Shown: piece by piece, positions 1,700 to 63,437 of the stretch
Layout: every line of letters begins with the position of its first letter
Numbering within the stretch: position 1 is the stretch's first letter
Origin: Sphaerolaimus hirsutus
Taxonomy: Eukaryota > Nematoda > Chromadorea > Monhysterida > Sphaerolaimidae
Assembly: GCA_964036195.1 (NCBI GenBank)
Contig: OZ038451.1
Span: 1,054,001 to 1,118,000 of the forward strand
DNA: 64,000 nt
Direction of reading: 5' to 3'
Translations under genes and position numbers: made by a program
Notes under the pieces: generated by a model
The model's database searches: none
Seen by the model: only the letters and a program-made list of their open reading frames with translations
What the model was told of the DNA's origin: nothing

Positions 1700-3410
1700 A
1701 TGGTTGGTTTTAGTAAAATTCTTTTTACTAAAATTGTATTTTATTTTTATTAAAATTGTATTTTTATTATTTTATTCATGTTTCATTTTATTTTATTTTA
1801 TTTTATTCTGAAATGTCATTAATAAAATAAAATGAAACCATTTTACAAAAATTTTACAAATATTTTACAAAAATTTTACAAAAAATCGGAATCTTGGATG
1901 CAAGGCCATAAAACAATGTGCACGCTAGAATTTTATGTACCGTATTTCCTCGAAATACCCCCCTCTCGAAATACCCCCCCCCCCCTGAAAATGGACACTA
2001 TGAAAAAATAACCCACCCCCTCGAAATACCCCCCACCCCTAATTGAGTGTACAGTTAATGTACATGACAAAACTGCGGTTTGTGATTCGGCCAATGCAAA
2101 ACACGTTAAAAACTATGAATTGTTACGTTAGAACGGTGTTACACACTTATATAAGTCAATAGACTCTTATATATAGCGGTTATTGTTGCATTTTTCTATG
2201 TCTGCGTATGTTACAGAGACAATTTAGTACTGGAATTTCAAAAAAATTTCTGGCGAAATAATAAGCCGCCCCCCTCGTTTAACCCTCCCTCAAAATTCTC
2301 ACTCTGAAACAATCACTCCCGGGGGGTATTTCGAGGAATTATGGTAGAATTGTGACCCTCACAAGGGCCGGAAGATAGCTAAAAATTTGTTACTTTTCGG
2401 GGGTGGGGGGGGCTTGCAGGGTTCAGTGTATAGGCTTTTTCAAGTATGGAACAAAGAAAATAGGAAAAAAATCACATAAATTAGTGATTTTTAGGTGATA
2501 ATGTATTAAAAGATGTGAAAATTTGCAATTTTGAGCAAAAATATTTTTCAATCAATACAATGAAAGCAACAACAAGGCACGAGTTATGCAAATTGGCAGT
2601 TAAATCTTAAGCAACAGCATAGAAAACTTTTTATAGGGTTTTACAGACACTCGAGTTTTTGTAAAATTTTACTAAAACTGTACAAAAATTCGAATTTTTG
2701 TAAAATTTTAGTAAAATTGTACAATAATTCAAATTTTTGTACAATTTTAGTAAAATTTTACAAAAACTTGAGTGTCTGTTAAATTCTATAGAAAGTTTTC
2801 TATCATGTTGCTTAAGTTCCTAACTGCCAATTTGCAGAACTAGTGCCTTGTTGTATCTTTCATTGTTGTGATTGAAACATATCGTTGCTCAAAATTGCAA
2901 ATTTTCACATTTGTTGAAATATTTTCACCTTAAAGATCACTAATTTATGTGATTTGTTTTCATTTTCTTCATTCCATAAACCTTGAAAAAGCCTATATAT
3001 TGAACCCCGCAAGCCCTCCCCCCACCCAAAAAAAAAACAACCAAATTTTAGGTATCTTCCCTTGGGAGGAGCAATTATATGCATATATCCAGGACATCCT
3101 GAGGGTCAAAATACAAAATGCCTACCTCACAACTCATGTCAAAAGTTTACATAAAAAATTTTTTTGTATTCATCTGCATGCTTCTAGCATGCACATTGTT
3201 TAATGTCCTTGCATCCAAGATTTCCGATTTTTTGTAAAATTTTTGTAAAATATTTGTAAAATTTTTGTAAAATGGTTTCATTTTATTTTATTAATGACAT
3301 TTCAGAATAAAATAAAATAAACTGGAACATGAATAAAATAAAAATAAAATACAATTTTAATAAAAATAAAATACAATTTTAGTAAAAAGAATTTTACTAA
3401 AACCAACCAT
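1700..3410. mobile_element. Long fold-back element with nested insertions
   Basis: Arms of about 210 bp (1700-1910 and 3200-3410) are inverted copies, starting TGGTTGGTTTTAGTAAAATT. Inside are a TACC-family MITE (1938-2346) and a second inverted repeat (about 2400-3040) whose arms share AGGCTTTTTCAAG and a poly-G/poly-C edge. Confidence 0.8.
1938..2346. mobile_element. TACCGTATTTCCTCGAAATA family MITE, copy 1
   Basis: Inverted termini TACCGTATTTCCTCGAAATA / TATTTCGAGGAATTATGGTA with adjacent C-run and G-run blocks; TA at both ends. Internal segments (AACACGTTAAAAA, GTTACGTTAGAAC) recur in the other copies. Confidence 0.85.
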
Positions 3411-45905: not shown

Positions 45906-46104
45906 GTGCCGGTTCCGCAAGTGGAAAAGTTAAGAGTTGAATAAAATGATAAATTAAGAGTAAAGTTAAAAGTTAAGAGTTGAGTACAATCATGTGTCGT
46001 TTTACTCAACCTTTAACTCTTAACTTCACTCATAACTTATCACTTATCATTTTACTCAACTCTTAAGTTTTAACTCTTAACTTTTCCACTTGCGGAACTG
46101 GCCC
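45906..46104 (+). mobile_element. Intergenic copy of the intron-forming MITE family, 199 bp
   Basis: Starts GTGCCGGTTCCGCAAGTGG and ends CCACTTGCGGAACTGGCCC, flanked by CAG (45903-45905) and CAG (46105-46107). Same CAG|GT...CCC|CAG layout as the element that is intron 3 of the RSRC2-like gene. Interior is GTTAAGAGTTGAG repeats in inverted halves. Confidence 0.85.
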
Positions 46105-48722: not shown

Positions 48723-49598
48723 CATACATACCCTACACACAGGGGTATCCAAGATTTTTACACTCGGGGGGGGGGGGGGTGAATATATGACGTATCGCCC
48801 ATCTGGAGGGATAGATAGCTGAACCTTTTCCAGGAGGGCGCTGAAGGGGGGAGGGCTCAATACATAAATATATAGGCTTTTACAAGGTATAGAAGGCACA
48901 ATCATGTGGGAAAATTCGCTAGAAAAAGGTTAAAATATACAAAATTGGTTGAAAATAGCTACCCGAAATCCTCGAATAAGTCCACAGGGGCGTTATTTTT
49001 TCGTCAGATGTTTTTGATGGTAAGTTATTCAAGGTGGCGGAGTTATTCGAGGGGGTAATTTTTTTGCTCAAAACTTGAAGTAAATTAATTGTAAATAAAT
49101 ACGAATGCAGCCTGTCAACTCATGTAATTCCGGTATTTAACTGTCCAACAACAATAAAATGATGTGTATACACATCATGTATCGGCTCTCGCTGCATTCT
49201 TTTGTATTTTTGTATTGTATCCTATTCATCAAAAGGGGGAGTTATTCAAGAAAAGAGAGTTATTTAAGAAAAGGGAGTTTTTCAAGAAAAGGGAGTTATT
49301 CAAGAAAGGCGAGTTATTCGAGGGGGAGTTTTTTTTCCTTATATCGCCGACAGGTTGGAGTTATTCAAGGGGGAGTTATTCGAGGGGGACTTATTCAAGG
49401 ACTTGGGGTATAAAGCCGAAAATAGTGATTTTGAAGGCCCGCCGTAAACAAGCAGCCCCCCTCCGCTCAAATATCCTGCATATGTGATAATACCTGACAG
49501 GAATTAACGGAACTTATTGTAATAGACTTATTTGAAAAAACGGGGGAAAACATAAATAAATTTCTGCTAATGATTTAACCGGAATTACTGTATTTCAT

Positions 49599-50810
49599 TA
49601 CCGTATTTCTCCGTGTAAACCGCCCCCCAGTGCACAACGCCCGGGCGTTATACAGCTTTATAGCGCTCCCGGGGCACTATGCTTGGTTCCAAAAACATTA
49701 GCCAAGTTTAAATATTTACATGACAAATCAAGCTGAATTATCCACTTGGTCTGAATGTCCACTTGGTTTGAATTGTTTTAATGTTATGCTTCGCTGCGGC
49801 ATGCACGAATTCCGTGGTATGCACCTTTTTCTATTGAATTCGCTGCACGCTGTGAGCGAACACTAAATACCGTATTTCCTCGAAATACCCCCAGGAGGTT
49901 TATTTTTTCAGAGTGAGAATTTTGAGGGGGTATTTCGAGGGGGGTAATACGAGGGGGGGTTATTATTTCGCCAGAAATTTTTTTAACACCCAGTACTAAT
50001 AACGTACGCAGACGTAGAAAAATGCAACAAAACAACGATGTATAAGAGTCTACAGCCTTATATAAGTATGTAGATGATATAAACGACTGAGGCTCTCTGT
50101 GCATGTTTACCCGCTGTGCATGTAGACCCTAATTTTCACACAAAATCGCTCATTTTCATACCATTTTATACATTTTCACCTTCAAAATCACTAGTTCATG
50201 TGTTTTATTGTCTATTTTAAGCTATTTCTTCTAGTATATGTGCTTATATACCCATTTTTAGTAATTTTTCACCTACTTTTAGCGATTTTTCTACCTTTTT
50301 TCCTCATTATGAAAAAGCCTATACAATGAACCCCCATGAACCCCCAAACCCCCCAAAAAATTTTTCTAGCTATCTATCCCTCCAGAGGAGCGATTAGCCA
50401 TCTATCCAACCCCCTGGAGGGTCAAAGTCTTAAATACTCCTGACATGCACAGCGGGTAAACATGCACAGAGGCACAGGCCCGATATAAACCATGTTCTAA
50501 CGTAACACAATCATTGTTTTTTACGTGTGTTCTGCGTTTCCCAGCGCTTTTATCATCTACGTTCCCTATACACTGAATTTGGGGGGTATTTCAAGGGGGA
50601 GAATTATTAATTCATAGTGCCCATTTTGAGGGGGGTATTTTGAGGGGGGGGGGGTAAATCGAGGAAATACGGTATGTAAATATTAAAGCAAAAATTTGCC
50701 GTGTACAACGCCCACCTCCGAATGATTTAACACCCGGGCGTTATACAAGTTTTAAAAAAGGTTGCTGAAAAGTGCCTCGGTTTTGTATAACACCCGGGCG
50801 GTTTATTCCG
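49599..50810. mobile_element. TACCGTATTTCTCCGTGTAA MITE with nested TACC MITE
   Basis: Left part resembles the inverse of 932-1314; the right part is at 50675-50810 (GTATAACACCCGGGCG). The nested element 49868-50674 separates them, and it holds a further insertion from about 50096 to 50475 with CTGTGCATGTTTACCCGCTG ends. Confidence 0.65.
49868..50674. mobile_element. TACC-family MITE copy 9, nested and interrupted
   Basis: Starts TACCGTATTTCCTCGAAATA and ends ATCGAGGAAATACGGTA. Interrupted by an element with CTGTGCATGTTTACCCGCTG / CAGCGGGTAAACATGCACAG ends. Confidence 0.78.
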
Positions 50811-52522: not shown

Positions 52523-52685
52523 CTACTTGGCTAGCGCGTCATTCTCGCACTCGCTGTGCAAGTCGGGCGCGCTCTTGCCCGACTTTTCGGGCACGGCGGC
52601 GGGCGCGGCGTTGGCGCCCGACCGGAGCGCGGCCATCTTGGCCGTCCACTGCTCGAAGGCGCTCTGGTAGCCCAAGCCCACGCCC
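52523..52685 (-). CDS. RSRC2: RSRC2-like exon 12: C-terminus and stop
   Basis: Residues 470-523 and TAG: R-GVGLGYQSAFEQWTAKM, then an Ala/Ser-rich tail ending NDALAK. RG.GLGF is the closing motif of the SMAP domain. The tail is longer than in human RSRC2, and this exon is clearly GC-richer than its surroundings. Acceptor ATGGCAG. Confidence 0.83.
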
Positions 52686-55600
52686 CTGCCATTCGTGGGG
52701 GTGGGGGGTTAGGGACCCGGGCAAGGGAAACGAAGAAAAATATGTGTAAAATAGCCTAAATTTGGTGGAAAATGGCTTAAAATAAGTATAAAGCAATGAG
52801 GAATATAAAGACAAAAATCTTAATGATGACTTTAATGATTTTGAAGGTGGAAATAGGAAAAAAGGTATGAAAATTAGCCATTTTTAGCTAATATTCGGTA
52901 AAAATTTCTTAAAAATCTCAGGGTGTAACCTTCCAACTGAGTACTAGACCCCTGCAAATCAGTCATGCCGTAGAAATTTCCCAATATCGTGCAGTGAAAT
53001 GGACAAACCTGCTCTGAGTAGTCTCTTTTGCAGTTTCATATTGTTTATCCAAATCTCGGAACATTTTGCCGCACCGCTGAAGCTCCTCCTAAAAAGCAAA
53101 TAGATTGTGCAGAAAATCGTAAAGATGGTGAACTCGCAGAGGAATCAAAAAACGTTATTTTGACGAACCCGTTTACAAAACGTTTTCAATGCTTGTGTTT
53201 AAAAACAAGGTATACTCGGCGTACATGATACTCTGCCCTCGCACTGATTTATGTCTCGTGTTGGAAGCGTGCCAATGATTGTTAAATCATGCGATTTCCA
53301 TAAAAATATGAAAAATTTATCGATGTGAATATGTTAATGAAAAACATTATTACAACAATCAACTTTTTGTCATTTGTCAACTTTAAGAAACTCGCACGCG
53401 TTGACGATCGTTGGCACACTTCCAGCGGGAACCACGCGTGCAAGGTATAAAGTAACCGGAGTATACTTGAAGAATACTTTTTAAAACCCTGACTAGGGTT
53501 GGAAAAAAATCGATTTTTTTTAACGACCCCGATTTTTTTTAAAAAAAATCGATTTTTTTTAAAAAAAATCGATTTTTTTAAATAAAAATCGCTGGGGTCA
53601 AAATTAGCCCCATTTCTGCCTAAAATCGCCTCTGGGGGTAATAAAAGCCATATAAATTGGTAGGGAGTGCACACTTATACTTTCTGTGCTAATATAAGTA
53701 CAGTAGAGCTTCGGAAAAGCTTGAAAGTCAGTTATTTTTAAGTGTAAATGTCATTAAATTGTTATATTTGTGACGGGAATCACACTTCATCGACAGTTTG
53801 CAATTTTATTTGCAGAAATAGCATGTTCTTGCTCAGAAGAAAATATAAATGATATTGGAAGTGAACATGGATGCATTTTGCATAAATGTTTGATGTGACA
53901 ACACAAAGCATAACTATGAATACTTCCTAAAATAATTCACAGCCTACCTTACACACTTAAAAGCACACATAAATGGGTACTACACCCCCCAAATTGGTTG
54001 TCAAAGCCATGAAAAAAGCAACTTGTGGATTGTTTGCATGAAAGTGCGCGCTCGCGCGCAAAATTTTTGCATTTTACCTAGTGCTTGAGTACCAAAATTT
54101 TTTGCCAGCGATTTTTTTTAAAAAAAATCGGTACGGGTGCTGCGATTTTTTTAAAAAAAAATCGAAATTTTTTTTAAAAAAATCGCTTAAAAAAAATCGC
54201 TTGCCAACCCTAACCCTGACCACCGCTAAACTCACATCAATAATATTTTTATCCTTGGACTTGTTGTCATCTTTCTTTGCGACAATGTCCTCAGCAGTTT
54301 TCACAGTTTTCATTCCCATCAATTTGGCAAATTTGAGGGCCGATTCTGGATTGTCGCCTGCGAATGAGACAAAAATTACCAAGGACTTTCGAATGTACGC
54401 TTGAAAGTCGATAACTCCATAAAATCGACTAAAATCGACACGAGCAAAAAAGCACTTAAGAAAAAGTCCAGTAAACAAGTTTATTTATTGCCACGACAAA
54501 ATGTTCTTTCCCGGTCCCTGATAATTTGCCTTGTGGGTAGGGTGTCAAATTTCTTTAATTCGTTTTCGCAGGCAATTTTTTTTCCGTTTTCCGGGCACTA
54601 ATTTCCCCCCCGCTTTTCAGGCTCATTTTCCGTTTTCCGGCTAAATTGTACAGTTTTTCCGCCGTTTTTCCGTTTTCCGGCTAAATTTTCTGTTTTACCA
54701 CCGTTCTTCCATTTTCCAGCTAAATTTTATGTTAGTAGACTTTTGAAGTTGATTTCTACAATCATTTAGAAGTGAGCAAACCGGCAGCGGCGGCCAAAAG
54801 GGACGACCACTTGAGTTCCGCTTTGGATTCCCGCTTTGCAACCGTTTCTGCTTTCCGCTCCGCCTTCTTTGGCACCTCGCCAGCAGTAGAACTCGATGCC
54901 TGCACATTCTTGCATTGATATACCACTGAATTATTCAATGCGCATACTTGCCCTAGTTGGCAAGGACACCAAATGTCTAGAAATATTTTTCCAACACTAC
55001 AACTTAATTTGCAACGTGGTTTGCGGGGGGTCAATATATAGGCTGTTCCAAGGTATAGAAGAAAGAAAAAGGGATATGTAGATATAAAGGCATATAGTGC
55101 ACAAAATAGCTCCAAATAAGCAATGAAACACTTGAAATCGTGATTTTGAAGGTGAAAAACTATTGTATGAAAATTAAGCGGCGTTTACACTGCATTTCGT
55201 GCCGACAAAAAAAGACAACAAAAAGTTTCATAATTCCACAATAAAGTTCCATATCTGCAAGACAAAGCAGTGAAGTATACTCACTAATGGAGTGTACACA
55301 CATGCCAATTTACAGATAATTCGGGCATGTTGTTCACGACTTGAAAACAAATTACAGTTGTCGGTTCGGTTTTCGTTTTGAAACCGAACCGACAACTGAG
55401 GCGTCCAATTCTAAAAGTCGACAAGTCCAAAATATGAAAATTTCGAGTTAGGCCCGGAAACGTCATCTGGGGCTACTTCTGCACATTTTTCATCATTTTC
55501 CATAAATTTTTTGACCTCACATGCCTATATGGCAAAGTGCCAAATTCGACATTTTTGGGGAAAAATGCAAAAATTTTGGGCAAGAAGTCGTCAAGTCCAC

Positions 55601-58600: not shown

Positions 58601-61600
58601 ATATCCTTGGAAATGAACACATTTTTGCGACTTTTCGCTGTATATGTATGCATAATTACATACATATAAAGCGGTTCCCGGCGCTGGCGCCAACGCCAAT
58701 AACGCCATGCCGTGGCGCCTTTGTATGGCGCTAGCGCCAAAACGCTTTTTCGTACTTATATAGGGAAAATGTTAGGGGGGGCTGAGCCCCCCCCCCGTTC
58801 GCCGACCCCCGTAAACAAGTAGCCCCCCCCCCCGCTCAAAAATCCTGGATACGTCCTTGACCCCAAACAACTTACCATAGACCCCCCTGTAGGGCATGTC
58901 GGCGCCTCCCCTGCCGCCCCTATATTTCCTGTTGAAGGGGTCATCTCTTTCTCTGGCGATTTCTTTTTTGTCCAGGTGCCACCACATGCCCCTGCCCGCG
59001 CCGCCGCGCTGCCGGTAAGGACGACCCCTGGTATCTGTGATTTGCAACTTCTTTGAATTTGGAACTTTACAGTTGAACACTTTACAGGGGGCGTGACCGA
59101 CGCCAAAGGTCAAAAAAGTTAACGCGTAAGGTTTAAAAGTCGTGTTATTCACTAAATCCCAAAAGACAATAATTAAATACAAAAACAGCAAAAAATGTAA
59201 GCGAAATTGAACTCACTTGAGTTCCATCCACCAGCCCTAAAATCATGACCATCCCCACGTGCGTCCGGGCGCCTATTGTCATCACCATATCGACTAGAAT
59301 TCCCGAATCTGTCCCTGTCTCGGTGCTGCGACAAATCGCGCCTGAACACGTATGAAGTTAAGCCTGGTTGACACGCTTTTGGGCCAACACGCACTAGTTG
59401 ACTTGACATGGAAAACAAATCCGGGACTGGGATTAGCCGAACCAGGTACCGGCACCGCGGTATTGTTTGAACCTTATTGGTATCTTATCCAGCCAATGTT
59501 GTTCCACACACCTCCACTGTGTGAGGGACCACTCTCAATGTATAAGCCTTCTCTTATAACATTATTCAAGCAGTATTCCATTGACATCTTCACTTGAAGT
59601 TGTGAATATATGATGAAACGCAATGTACGCAGGATTTTTTTGGGAGGGGGGCGGCGCCAGTTGTAGGCGCCAGCGCCATGCCAGCATTGGCGCTGGCGTT
59701 GGCGGCAACGTTTACAATATAGGTATCTTTATATACCTATATTTCGTACTAGAATCATGTTGGGGACCTTTTTTTACGCTGTCACATTATGGAAAAATAC
59801 ATAGTAATACTTGGCTGGGTATTTGCGCGCTTGCGCGCAAAAAATTTTTAGATGTTCCTACAAAATCGCTTTAGAAAAGTGTCATTTCTGGCAAATTTTT
59901 TTGAAAAATACGTTTTTTTCCATCCCTTGTCGGCACCGCTATAAAATTCCGGGACCGGGACTGGGTGGTCGGGACCGGAACCGGGACTCGCTTTTTTATT
60001 GTCGGGACCGGGACCGGGACGTCGGGACCGGGACCGCCCCAGTCCCGACTTTTTGCCGAACCATGTACCGGGACCGCGGTCCCATTTGAACCCTAGTTCA
60101 TCCCAATTACAGACCTTGCTCACGAGATCACAAATGAGGTTCAAATGCAATAGTGTTGAATCGTGTTGTAAATGAAGCAGTGGTATGGAAATAAATATTG
60201 CGATGTGCGCAATGTATTTACTAATCATGTAAAATCCACTGACGCTGTAATCCCCCGTTACACGCTAATCACCCCCTACTAGGGGTATACCGTATTTCCT
60301 CGAATTACTAATCGGTTAATTTTTCAGAGTGGGCATTTTGAGGGGGATAAAACGAGGGGGGTATTTCAAGGGGAGTTATTATTTCGTCAGAATTTTTTAA
60401 AATTCCCAGTACTAAATTGTTGTTTGACGTACACAGACGTCGAAAAATACAACAAAAACCGCCATGTAAATATAAGACTCTATATAGACTTATAAGTGTG
60501 TAGAATGTATAAACCCTGTTCTAACATAACACAGTCATTGTTGTCAATGTGTGTTCTGCGTTTCCCAGATCACAAACCGTAGCTTTTGTCATTTACGTTC
60601 TCTATACACTATATTTGGGGGGAGTATTTCGAGGGGGGTTATAAATTCATAGTGTCCTATTTTGAGGGGGGTATTTCGAGAGGGAGAGGGGGGGTTATTC
60701 GAGGAAATACGGTAGATGTGTAGCAGGTAGAAATACGTGACTGGTGGGTCTACATGACTAGCAGGGTTCCGATGAATACAGACACAGGGTCCATGTTCTT
60801 ATCTTAAATAGAACGCGCCCAAAAAACCGTTTGGACACATAACTAAAAAGAAAAAAAATCGTGTATCGTGTGAAAAGCGCCCCCAACCTTCTATCAGAGC
60901 TATCCCGGTGTCTGTGTCTCGATGTGCTCCTGGACCTCGATCTGTGCCGCTCCCGTCTACCATAATCCTCACAATAATAATCTGGGGTCAATTCCGCAAG
61001 TGGATAGTGACAAGAAAAGTGCTCTGTGGTAAGTTCGCTTATCATCAAATATATTTCAAATATATCAAAGTAATTGATGCTTGAGTTGGGACGATATATC
61101 GTATCGGATATCGACTATTTTCCACTAATGAGTATCGATATCCACGGACCATATCAATAACGAATATCAAGTTTCAGAAAAAAGTATCCGATCAGAAATA
61201 CCAACATCGAAAAGTCATTTCAACCGAAACCTTATTTTTTTATAAATACGGGTATTTCTATTTAAAATTACACTTTTTACCTGAGTTACTACACATAACT
61301 TTACAGGGGTATCTTGAATTTTGACCCTCCGAGTGGTTGGATAGATAGCAAATCGCTCCTCCGGAGGGATAGATAGCTGAAAACTTTTCTGGGGGGGTTG
61401 GGGGGGGGGGGTTGTGGTGGTTCGATATATAGGCTTTTTCGGGGCATAGAAGGAACAAAAGGGAGAAAAATCGCTAAAAGTAGGTGTAAAATAGCTCAAA
61501 ATGGGTATGCAAGAGCATATAGTACTTAAAATAGCTGAAAATAGTTTGATGCATGAACTAGTGATTTATTTAGGTATGAAAAATAGCGATTTTGAGCGAT

Positions 61601-63437
61601 CTTTGGTGTATAGTTTCTGAAAAATTGCTCCAGATAGGTAGATAGCTGGGCGATTTGGGGGGGGGGGGGTTTAGGGGGTAGTAGCCCAAAATTTTGCCTC
61701 CGGGATAGATAGATAGCTGAGCGGCCTCCAGGATAGATAGATAGCTGGGCGGTTTGGGGGGGGGGTAACCCCCCCCATTCGAGACCCCTGGAACTTTACT
61801 AAGCGCTTACCACTTTCTTGTCACTTATTCATTTGCGGAATTGGCACCTGCAGATTTCCCGCCGCTGTGCGTCCTTCTGTATTCCCGCTCTACATCGGAC
61901 TCATACACTACTTTTTCTGCAGTCGACTTTTTTGGCTTGCTGCCAGAATGAGACCGATCGCGTTTGCGCGATTTTCGACTGGAGCTCGGAGATTTCGAAA
62001 TCTTGCGTTTTTTGCCGCCGGGTGGGGAAAATTGCGTGTTTAGTTGACTTTTGACCAGAATTTCCTTTTCTTTCTGCAAGTGCGGGGGGGGGGGGGGGGG
62101 GTGGAAATGGGACAAAGACACTGAACTACCTATACTTTGAATGTTGAATGTGAATTTCGGGAATGGAACTTAAATTGCAGCAGTGCCGCGTGGGGGATTC
62201 AAACGGGCTTGACCTTCTTGGATCGGGACATTGAGCTCAGGGGTTCAGTAGGGCCCCCCCCCCCCCCCTGGAGCGATTTTTGAGAAACTACACCCCTGTT
62301 TTCGCTCAAAATCGCTATTTTTCATACCTTTATATAGTATTTCACCTCCAAAATCACTAGTTCATGTGTCTAACTGCCTATTTTGAGCTATTTTTAGTAC
62401 TATATGTCCTTATATACCCATTTGTCACCTACTTTTAGCGATTTTTCTCCTTTTCCTCCCTTCTATGCCTATATTTTAAACCCCCGCGACCCCCCCAACC
62501 CCCACCAGAAAATTTTTTCAGCTATCTATCCCTCCGGAGGAGCGATTTGCTATCTATATGAACCCCCGCGGGGGTCCAAATCTACAAAACCCCTGATTGA
62601 GCTCAAAATCAGCATCGGGATTTGGCACAATGTTCTGTATTGTAGGTTTTTCCAGATTCCAGATTCACATTTGTCACTGCAAAAAGGCATTTGGCACATT
62701 GGACAAATTTGTCCGGGATTGGGATTTAGGAAATCTTATATGGATTTGAAAATTTTCGGGATCGGGGCTTTCAGATCCAGTTTAATCCTTAGTGAAGTGT
62801 GCGAACGAATTTTTCAACATCTTAACAATCAAACAAAAATTGCGATAAAGATCGAAACCTTGAGTCGCTTGCTCAATTCTTCTTTGAGCTTCTTTCTGGA
62901 TGCAATTTTCTCACTCAAATGTTCCCGCAATTCCTTCACTATCGAATTTCCGCCAGCGTCGCTGAAAAGTCAGGGGAAAAAACTTATGAAAAATGATAAT
63001 TTGCAGACGAGTTGACGCCGGGTTTTAAACCGGATTCCATATTTATTCAGATTTTAGTTGACCGGTCCTAGGAAGGTTGAATTTCCAAGGTCCGCAATAT
63101 TGAATAAAAATATTATGGAATATCATGTGATAGTCAATATACGAATAGACTTGGAGACCAGTTGACATCGTGTGTCAACTTGTGTGTAGGTAGCGTCAGT
63201 AGAAGCGCGCTACTCTACTGGAAGAAATAAGACAATATCCACCGACCCGGAAAAAGTAATAAAAATTGTTGGCACAGTGCCAAATAAAACATACACTTCA
63301 TCCGATGATTCCCTATAATCGCTGGATTCATCGGTATCAGTAGGCTCTCTTCTCTCCGGTCTCTTTTTGGTGTACACCTTCTTTTGTATCTTGTCCTTTT
63401 TATGTTTCTTGGACGATTTTTTCGATTTTGGCGACAT
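52523..63437 (-). CDS. RSRC2: RSRC2-like arginine/serine-rich SMAP-domain protein gene, 12 coding exons, 523 aa (span includes introns)
   Basis: Twelve minus-strand exons (63295-63437, 62859-62961, 61848-62073, 60888-60981, 59217-59341, 58876-59034, 58076-58155, 56405-56563, 54782-54899, 54236-54357, 53009-53088, 52523-52685) join to 1572 nt, ATG to TAG, with phase kept at every GT-AG junction. The protein has a Lys/Arg-rich start, short helical charged stretches, SR/RS and RH-rich tracts (159-188), an RG-rich segment (232-283) and a C-terminal SMAP-type domain. The last shows the WSSLLA segment, KFAKLMGMK (411-419), MFRDLDKQYETA (452-463) and RGVGLGY (470-476), the order seen at the C-terminus of human RSRC2. 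SR-rich proteins of this type are nuclear and linked to RNA processing; the molecular role of RSRC2 is poorly defined. It is somewhat longer than human RSRC2 (about 430 aa, from memory). SMAP identity is good; orthology is probable. Confidence 0.83.
53009..53088 (-). CDS. RSRC2: RSRC2-like exon 11: SMAP helix
   Basis: Residues 444-469 plus two bases: EELQRCGKMFRDLDKQYETA then KETTQS. It parallels the family segment E.F.NLD.QYE.AR..T. Acceptor TTTGCTTTTTAG (TAG type), donor GTTTGT. Confidence 0.83.
53494..54212. mobile_element. hAT-like element, TAGGGTTGG termini, ATCGATTTTTT arrays, RSRC2 intron 10
   Basis: Ends TAGGGTTGGAAAAAAATCG and GCCAACCCTA; perfect 8-bp duplication ACCCTGAC (53486-53493, 54213-54220). 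AAAAAAATCGATTTTTTTT arrays at both ends. Its edge is 23 nt from the exon 10 donor. Confidence 0.9.
54236..54357 (-). CDS. RSRC2: RSRC2-like exon 10: KLMG core of the SMAP domain
   Basis: Residues 403-443: GDNPESALKFAKLMGMKTVK then TAEDIVAKKDDNKSKDKNIID. KF.KLMG.K is the most diagnostic motif of the SMAP/RSRC2 C-terminal domain. Acceptor CATTCGCAG, donor GTGAGT. A transposon with (ATCGATTTTTT)-like arrays ends 23 nt downstream of the donor. Confidence 0.85.
54534..54740. mobile_element. TAGGGTGTCAA element, right end not found
   Basis: Starts TAGGGTGTCAAATTTC and continues as TTTTCCGGCTAAATT-type repeats to about 54735. No TTGACACCCTA end follows. Confidence 0.6.
54782..54899 (-). CDS. RSRC2: RSRC2-like exon 9
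   Basis: Residues 364-402 plus one base: ASSSTAGEVPKKAERKAETV, AKRESKAELKWSSLLAAAA. The Trp-containing segment fits the W-x-x-L motif before the KLMG core. The donor GTTTGC is weak and inferred: reading through instead meets a stop about 18 nt later, while splicing here joins in phase to the KLMG exon. Confidence 0.7.
55177..56222. mobile_element. PIF/Harbinger-like MITE, AGCGGCGTTTACAC ends, 1046 bp, RSRC2 intron 8
   Basis: Inverted ends AGCGGCGTTTACACTGCA / CGTGTAAACGCCGCT with TTA on both sides, the target size and sequence typical of PIF/Harbinger. It interrupts a TATGAAAAT-TAGCGATTTTGAG sequence found intact elsewhere. Inside are repeats of GGCGACAAGTCCA. Confidence 0.78.
56405..56563 (-). 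CDS. RSRC2: RSRC2-like exon 8: coiled-coil-like segment
   Basis: Residues 311-363: VLEQVELVKQRRELWRQCRR, then a Glu/Ala-rich stretch and GGQMQQRSHK. The KQRRELW part resembles the K.KR.MLW segment upstream of the SMAP region in human RSRC2. Acceptor AATCTCAG, donor GTTGTG. A hAT-like element ends about 15 nt upstream of the acceptor (56579-57100). Confidence 0.8.
56579..57100. mobile_element. hAT-like element with GGGATC arrays, next to RSRC2 exon 8
   Basis: Starts TAGGGTTTTGACGTG and ends CCCGTTTGAACCCTA, flanked by G-runs. Body is TTCGGGATCGGGATCGGG repeats, inverted at the two ends only in part. It ends 15 nt upstream of the exon 8 acceptor. Confidence 0.8.
57450..57899. mobile_element. 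ACGTAGCCAGG element, sister of 58416-58859
   Basis: Ends AGGACGTAGCCAGGGGGG and TCCTGGCTACGTCCCTGG; same G-run, GGCGCC and CCGCTCAAAAATCCTGG blocks as the 58416 copy. No target duplication recognised. Confidence 0.7.
58076..58155 (-). CDS. RSRC2: RSRC2-like exon 7
   Basis: Residues 284-310: G-PNRGEVVEGAQKIIADAP-GPSFVTSR. Acceptor TTATTTCCAG, donor GTATGT. The phase fits on both sides. There is no recognisable motif, so support comes from splice sites and phase. Confidence 0.75.
58416..58859. mobile_element. hAT-like element, CAAGGACGTATCCAGG ends, 444 bp, RSRC2 intron 6
   Basis: Ends CAAGGACGTATCCAGG and CCTGGATACGTCCTTG; perfect 8-bp duplication ACCCCAAA (58408-58415, 58860-58867). Its edge is 16 nt from the exon 6 donor. 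Confidence 0.88.
58876..59034 (-). CDS. RSRC2: RSRC2-like exon 6: RG-rich segment
   Basis: Residues 231-283 plus one base: TRGRPYRQRGGAGRGMWWHL, DKKEIARERDDPFNRKY, RGGRGGADMPYRGVY. The RG repeats suggest RNA binding or arginine methylation (inference). Acceptor AAATCACAG, strong donor GTAAGT. A 444-bp hAT-like element begins 17 nt into the intron (58416-58859). Confidence 0.8.
59217..59341 (-). CDS. RSRC2: RSRC2-like exon 5
   Basis: Residues 189-230 plus one base: RDLSQHRDRDRFGNSSRYGD, DNRRPDARGDGHDFRAGGWNS. Arg/Asp/Gly-rich, disordered in character. Acceptor GTGTTCAG, strong donor GTGAGT. The next intron is only 182 nt and is the one intron in this gene with no transposon visible. Confidence 0.78.
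59940..60095. mobile_element. GGGACC-array element, right part
   Basis: GGGACCGGGAC arrays on both sides of a GTCGGGACC centre, ending CCCATTTGAACCCTA. Related sequence (GCTATAAAATTCCGGGACC) occurs near 18715 and 23770. Confidence 0.65.
60288..60714. mobile_element. TACC-family MITE copy 10, RSRC2 intron 4
   Basis: Starts TACCGTATTTCCTCGAATTA and ends TTCGAGGAAATACGGTA with the family's internal GTTCTAACATAACACAGTCA block. Confidence 0.85.
60888..60981 (-). CDS. RSRC2: RSRC2-like exon 4: RS-repeat
   Basis: Residues 158-188 plus two bases. YYCEDYGRRERHRSRSRSTS then RHRHRDSSDR is a compact RS/RH-rich tract. The acceptor CCCCAG is the duplicated CAG target of the MITE intron. Donor GTTGGG; phase fits the next exon. 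Confidence 0.82.
60985..61847 (-). mobile_element. MITE that constitutes intron 3 of the RSRC2-like gene
   Basis: Read on the minus strand it starts GTGCCAATTCCGCAAATG right after the CAG ending exon 3 and ends CTTGCGGAATTGACCC followed by a second CAG and exon 4. Inverted ends extend through TGACAAGAAA. The intron is this element plus one CAG (60982-61847, 866 nt). A later hAT insertion (61304-61790) lies inside; without it the intron would be about 370 nt. Confidence 0.87.
61304..61790. mobile_element. hAT-like element, CAGGGGT ends, nested in the MITE intron
   Basis: Ends CAGGGGTATCTTG and CGAGACCCCTG; flanks TAACTTTA / GAACTTTA (7 of 8). Interior has GGATAGATAGCTGA repeats, G-runs and AGGCTTTTTC, a sequence set also seen at about 48733, 50210, 52700-52955, 55020 and 62240. 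Confidence 0.82.
61848..62073 (-). CDS. RSRC2: RSRC2-like exon 3: basic SR/K-rich segment
   Basis: Encodes residues 83-157 plus one base: KEKEILVKSQ..., GGKKRKISKSPSSSRKSRKR (a likely nuclear localisation signal), ...VYESDVEREYRRTHSGGKSA. The acceptor CTTGCAG follows a long poly-C run. The donor G|GTGCCA is the first base pair of a MITE that forms the whole next intron. Confidence 0.82.
62230..62780. repeat. Partial CAGGGGT-type and GGGATC-type element sequence, RSRC2 intron 2
   Basis: 62240-62600 carries the CAGGGGT-family blocks (poly-C, AAATCGCTATTTTTCATACC, CTATCTATCCCTCCGGAGGA). 62700-62780 has GGGATTGGGATT and GGGATCGGG units. Confidence 0.6.
62859..62961 (-). CDS. RSRC2: RSRC2-like exon 2: charged helix
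   Basis: Completes Val48 and encodes residues 49-82: DAGGNSIVKELREHL then SEKIASRKKLKEELSKRLK, a strongly charged likely helix. Acceptor CCTGACTTTTCAG; donor GTTTCG, a weak match. Confidence 0.72.
63295..63437 (-). CDS. RSRC2: RSRC2-like exon 1: start codon, basic N-terminus
   Basis: Residues 1-47 plus two bases. MSPKSKKSSKKHKKDK opens a Lys/Ser-rich nuclear-type N-terminus followed by TDTDESSDYRESSDE. The donor GTATGT is chosen over GTGTAT two bases earlier because it is the better site and fits the next exon's phase. A longer in-frame extension upstream has no ATG. Confidence 0.75.

Follow-up and report, generated by a model that had tools for sequence, protein, structure and literature searches.

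A CWG-targeting, NuwaI-like transposable element family that probably supplies exact introns in the nematode Sphaerolaimus hirsutus

An RSRC2-like gene of Sphaerolaimus hirsutus contains an intron that corresponds, apparently to the base, to one copy of a high-copy MITE family, and other copies of this family appear to coincide exactly with introns of genes unrelated to it, which encode C2H2 zinc finger, FANCJ-like and ZnT-like proteins. We consider it very probable that the family is a CWG-targeting, PHIS/NuwaI-like MITE whose copies are spliced out by means of the GT at the element's own end and the AG of a target copy, so that insertions into exons become introns. A sense copy at CAG reads exon-CAG|GTGCC...CCC-CAG|exon, and the AG is preceded by a pyrimidine-rich stretch. 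The splicing itself is predicted from reading frames and homology.

The founding example lies in the window (the whole 64,000-nucleotide stretch that was analysed, located on contig C2). The exon model of the RSRC2-like gene was drawn by eye from position 63437 down to 52523, and its first five exons are phase-consistent (Table 1). The predicted intron, GT...CAG, measures 866 nt (61847-60982), and its excision restores TCTGCAG|ATTATT and preserves the frame; exons 1 to 3 total 472 nt, and the split codon is codon 158, GAT (Asp158). In these respects the window sequence agrees with the initial annotation, which had described an element between two CAGs on the minus strand and an Asp158 codon kept in frame. 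Its span of 60982..61850 does enclose the element and both CAGs, but includes the left CAG, which lies outside the intron. If the intron were retained, a stop would be met at the eighth codon of the frame. The joined protein matches the Pfam SMAP domain (E 1.1e-9, for a query chain with an XXXX spacer, one exon that is uncertain and joints that were guessed), so the label RSRC2 fits the gene. In the window, neither Rfam (gathering threshold) nor a tRNA scan gave a match.

Table 1. Features of the RSRC2-like gene and of the family in the window
Feature	Position in window	Strand	Remarks
Exon 1, RSRC2-like gene	63295..63437	-	donor GTATGT; ATG start presumed
Exon 2, RSRC2-like gene	62859..62961	-	
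Exon 3, RSRC2-like gene	61848..62073	-	phase 1 at its end; last bases TCTGCAG
Left CAG of target duplication	61848..61850	-	final bases of exon 3
CWG-targeting MITE, putative intron 3	60985..61847	-	863 bp; 5' end GTGCCAATTCCGC, 3' end GCGGAATTGACCC
Nested dispersed repeat in the 863-bp element	61306..61776	-	poly-G/CTATCTATC; borders approximate; also matches L074 element
Right CAG of target duplication	60982..60984	-	putative source of 3' splice site AG
Exon 4, RSRC2-like gene	60888..60981	-	begins ATTATT; followed by GT of next intron
Further exon, RSRC2-like gene	near 59340	-	after exon 4
3' exons with SMAP domain, RSRC2-like gene	52523..54357	-	span approximate, placed by homology not phase
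Second copy of the family in the window	45906..46104	+	199 bp; GG variant; CAG both sides; near-palindromic by eye

The ends of the 863-bp element are paired, as had been claimed: 60984-61006 and 61826-61848 form a terminal inverted repeat that is 83% complementary, and an alignment of its arms extends for about 50 nt, containing 2 mismatches and 3 gaps. The suggestion of a recent gain fares less well. The copy holds a nested repeat, its right end is altered, and it is common to a second RSRC2-like copy (C3:28538493-28539502), which has an 859-bp intron at the identical position and whose 75-nt exon 3 and exon 4 pieces are 99-100% identical to those of the window gene. Given this intron at the same site, the insertion is probably older than the gene duplication, unless both haplotypes are present in the assembly. 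The long-G-run/CTATCTATC repeat is also seen elsewhere in the window, at 62268-62595, 50185-50442, 48739-48949 and 2940-3122.

The family signal is weak inside the window and decisive genome-wide. Within the window, a 13-mer (up to 2 mismatches) gives 7 matches vs 2.63 expected, a number reached by 4 of 100 shuffles; in the 348-Mb genome, the end 18-mer GTGCCRRTTCCGCAARTG gives 6,009 matches (up to 1 mismatch) vs 3 for the reversed control. The genome-wide search for CAG-flanked ends that the initial annotation had proposed thus returns thousands of CWG-flanked ends, of which 3,623 are of the CWG-GTGCCRRTTCCGC (GT) type and 3,518 of the CWG-GGGCCRRTTCCGC (GG) type. Base 2 of the end motif after CWG is therefore T in 3,623 cases and G in 3,518, and is A or C in 266 (the total of 3,784 minus 3,518). 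The first 100 GT ends listed, which are all from contig C1, were checked for a partner within 1.6 kb: a perfect GG end lies there in the proper orientation for 51 of them, and in the control orientation for 1. The end-to-end distances of these 51 pairs are 159-267 bp (33 pairs), 482 bp (one) and 639-903 bp (17). The typical element thus has GT at one end and GG at the other, family-wide, and the family has the attributes of a MITE: small size, terminal inverted repeats, high copy number and, judged from size only, no coding capacity. The element is "directional", as first described, in that its ends differ, but the term does not describe the insertion itself, for which the two orientations are about equally frequent.

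About 190 kb of sequence around copies (L001-L030 and L061-L105, loci selected by their GT end) yielded 65 complete entries, which represent 62 distinct places, including the two in the window. CWG is present on both flanks in 55 of the 65, which indicates that the duplicated target is CWG; in the remaining 10, one side or both show a different triplet. The 55 divide into CAG/CAG (31), CTG/CTG (8), CAG/CTG (9) and CTG/CAG (7), that is, 39 with identical and 16 with mixed triplets. Point mutation seems unlikely as the sole cause of the mixed flanks, and mismatch repair of the central base at insertion is possible. For the pairs on contig C1, 8 of the 32 that could be classified are CAG/CTG-mixed, and 19 are unclassified. 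The initial annotation had named a 3-bp CAG target; the 3-bp duplication stands, but the target is CWG, with CAG and CTG about equally frequent.

A significant excess of CAG over CTG was sought in every end class tested genome-wide, and none was found. For exact left ends of the AR variant, CAG is actually the rarer triplet (1,060 vs 1,176, or 1,060/2,236, p 0.015), and GGCCC right ends are followed by CAG in 1,727 cases and by CTG in 1,791. Right ends of the RACCCCAG type were considered as a possible intron marker; the genome-wide counts (CAG 143 vs CTG 122, compared to 1,727 vs 1,791, Fisher p 0.13) do not establish it as such. Since there is no CAG excess, the family overall is not intron-only, and since CAG and CTG are about equal, splicing in this manner would be confined to sense insertions that have an AG on their right.

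Outside of the window, homology spans the junction of the candidate intron at two loci. At L088, a 228-bp element interrupts a C2H2 finger, and the zf-H2C2_5 model is complete (1-26/26) across the junction (protein E 2.4e-16, three stretches). At L082, a 189-bp element is crossed by a gapless FANCJ alignment (E 1.7e-4), with a Pfam Helicase_C_2 match (E 1.8e-4) that is under its cut-off. The L082 junction aligns to residue 673 of the 9ej9 chain (1,271 aa), which may bear a tag of about 22 residues, as we take human BRIP1 to be 1,249 residues long. With or without such a tag, the possible BRIP1 codons, 651-674, all fall within the borders 646-699, and we presume that no additional exon border occurs between c.1936 and c.2097. 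Of these borders, the published passages mark one by a splice variant at c.2097+1 and place the other near c.1936, for which one paper prints -1 in a table and +1 in the abstract. The L082 junction would therefore be located mid-exon in human BRIP1.

The other examples are less complete. At L101, a 190-bp element with diverged ends has an in-frame join to an exon of the cation-efflux (ZnT-like) type (Pfam E 1.9e-5, with 25.0 bits vs a cut-off of 26.6; best PDB match SLC30A4, E 3.2e-5); the homology is limited to the downstream exon, and the junction is assigned on frame and splice sites. At L105, the element interrupts an LDLa domain (E 4.2e-8) two positions before the end of the domain, which concerns the 5' side only, the 3' end of the element being outside the 600 bases examined. 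Weaker cases are L074, where a 989-bp element separates exons that join into an open frame and a plausible protein with no Pfam or PDB family match, and L010, where the frame is open across a 311-bp element and the Pfam match is insignificant. When six joined junctions were searched for empty sites or processed copies, none was found, and the only extra match was the second RSRC2-like copy. The claim that GT comes from the element and AG from the duplicated CAG is thus supported, at the level of predicted gene structures, in the RSRC2-like, zinc finger, FANCJ and ZnT-like genes. Genes such as those for LDLa, C2H2, FANCJ and RSRC2 proteins give the gene content a metazoan look.

The donor consensus is GTRAGT, and the putative donor CAG|GTGCCR agrees with it at the exon side and at +1 to +3, but not at +4 to +6. 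Across the 65 entries, the median pyrimidine fraction is 0.71 at -50 to -17 from the 3' end vs 0.29 at the 5' mirror position; the pyrimidine-rich stretch ahead of the AG mirrors a purine-rich 5' subterminal part. In 40 of the 65 entries, the branch-point consensus, yTRAy, occurs 15-50 nt upstream of the 3' end, as a raw count without a shuffled control. Folded as RNA, a part of one element scores a z of -2.2.

Most copies examined show no coding flank, and this includes the second copy in the window, for which none is clear. To sample the 1,060 CAG-left AR copies, 15 of 100 listed places on contig C1 were inspected (about every sixth, new ones only). Two of these have exonic flanks (L101 and L105; exact 95% interval 2-40%), and twelve lack clear coding evidence, of which L093 and L102, the only ones run against Pfam, gave no match. 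The remaining copy, L096, contrasts with the candidate exact introns in that it sits just within an ordinary intron. The gene is lipoyl-ligase-like (Pfam E 1.4e-4, under the curated cut-off), and its upstream exon, by eye, stops at its own GT. Among the 31 CAG/CAG entries, five were placed in coding exons (the window copy, L088, L082, L074 and L010). All five belong to the 10 entries of the AR variant, and none of the 21 GG-variant entries, whose junctions were assessed from open frames and by eye rather than with Pfam, stood out. A perfect right end is found in none of six exonic AR copies vs 11 of 18 others (p 0.016), or in none of five when L101, which was included by eye, is omitted (p 0.037). 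A different situation is seen at L027:1380-1940, where a sense CTG/CTG copy in an apparently coding exon has a 3' end without AG, and the nearest downstream AG, by eye, brings a stop in the likely frame; this copy may be spliced at GT-TG, may use a shifted AG or may be a broken allele.

These observations can be assembled into a mechanism in which a PIF/Harbinger-type transposase acting in trans would mobilise the elements, with CAG or CTG being duplicated upon insertion. The spliceosome would then take its donor from the first two bases of the element and its acceptor AG from the right target copy, which would restore the mRNA exactly and would allow exonic insertions of this class to persist as new introns. 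The donor may have been born when position 2 of one "GGG" end changed from G to T. A GGG start of the NuwaI type is present at one end of the family (3,518 places) and the other end is GTG; we infer that the GT end is derived from a GGG-type end because published NuwaI ends usually begin with GGG.

Several other readings of the same data were weighed. The MITE might have landed in existing introns, with the real splice sites elsewhere or coincident by chance, and the scarcity of coding flanks, together with the position of L096, is what this reading would lead one to expect. In the RSRC2-like gene, L082, L088 and L101, however, the frames reach the CAG and resume right after its second copy, and the homology at L082 and L088 continues across the junction without a gap. 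Each of these genes would need an old intron whose two boundaries coincide exactly with the element ends, and human BRIP1 has no known exon boundary at the corresponding place, so that we regard prior introns as an improbable explanation. We give a little less credence still to the idea that exonic insertions simply break genes (as pseudogenes or in one haplotype) and remain unspliced. L027 does resemble an exonic insertion without a usable AG, but the flanking exon sequences are open, and a retained copy would meet a stop within nine codons at each of the five places checked. In addition, the altered right ends of the exonic copies suggest that these are probably not brand-new, and the repeat-bearing RSRC2 copy is common to two gene copies with 75-nt flanks that are 99-100% alike.

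The least credible of the readings, and a very improbable one, is that the CAG and CTG triplets belong to the element ends and that there is no target duplication at all. CAG does flank many copies, and mostly the middle base alone varies. Yet the triplet differs among copies, both sides carry the same triplet in the majority of cases, as a CWG target duplication would lead one to expect, and the NuwaI duplication has been confirmed by empty sites elsewhere (PMC4482050). Splicing of a CWG-duplicating element through its own GT and the target AG remains the reading that we prefer.

A transposase for the family was sought within the same genome. PF13359 (DDE_Tnp_4) has at least 163 matches (306 candidates, 150 scored) and represents a high-copy transposase family. 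Paired GTGCC/GGGCC ends were sought at 30 PF13359 loci (L031-L060, about 1.5 kb on each side), and none were found; one of these loci (L032) has an isolated imperfect end motif. At another, L041, AGTTTACTGGC motifs were seen by eye to recur. A comparison by eye of PF13359 matches and TIR coordinates on contig C1, among those listed, gave no convincing pair; one TIR is approximately 3 kb from a match (C1:32.59 Mb), as chance would give likewise. A viral vector was also considered and rejected: the lone viral_contigs match (L106, a phage contig) is a 20-mer without a second end nearby, and is attributed to chance.

The initial annotation regarded the family as unfamiliar, which does not wholly apply to its kind, since it shares its CWG duplication and its GGG end with the NuwaI group (PHIS superfamily). 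As far as the published passages on NuwaI go, these PIF/Harbinger elements duplicate CWG, have TIRs of 12-61 bp that begin with GGG, are reported from animals only, and include an autonomous element that encodes a DDE transposase and a Myb/SANT protein (PMC4482050). The present family shares the CWG duplication and has GGG at one TIR end, and it differs in having GTG at the other end and in being non-autonomous with no linked transposase. The same passages describe no intron function for NuwaI, in contrast to the present family, which appears to serve as introns. Membership of the family in NuwaI/PHIS is likely, judging from its target.

Introners of Micromonas and Aureococcus are reportedly DNA-transposon-like (work of Huff and colleagues, 2016), with TSD bases giving one splice site; they have algal hosts and target lengths and ends other than those of the present family. 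Introners that take their 3' site from the TSD are already known (Gozashti et al. 2022, PMC9860276), and that survey, where animals and land plants are concerned, reports introners from just two taxonomic groups, each of them animal. The closest parallel described there is in Chrysochromulina, where the donor is also element-borne, the acceptor comes from the TSD and the mRNA length is unchanged, but the duplication is 4 bp and there are no TIRs, unlike the long TIRs and 3-bp CWG duplication of the present family. Compared to the introners of the survey in general (PMC9860276), most of the present copies examined lack a coding flank, and a TE superfamily can be proposed from the target. Amoebophrya introners, as described in part of their report (PMC7789003), similarly have inverted repeats and direct repeats of 3-5 nt over the exon-intron borders, but have mostly non-canonical sites and no family-specific inverted repeat, whereas the present family has GT-AG and a single TIR family. 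A search of the mostly open literature, covering listed titles and the opening lines of abstracts, found no CWG or Harbinger introner.

On the predicted gene structures, then, this is an introner family of a known mechanistic type, whose CWG target, in matching the proto-splice site, is unusually informative. We propose, as a possibility somewhat short of an even chance, that a PIF/Harbinger transposase that targets CWG (which contains the proto-splice CAG|G) seeds spliceosomal introns throughout an animal genome, and that the GG to GT change at one MITE end made about a quarter of the possible insertions exact introns. If true, this would provide a direct enzymatic reason for new introns arising at CAG|G. 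The origin of new introns is a long-standing question, and a family whose target links it to a named transposon group may allow transposase choice to be tested against the CAG|G context of introns. It may likewise allow a test of whether one base at the end of a transposon is enough to make insertion tolerable within genes.
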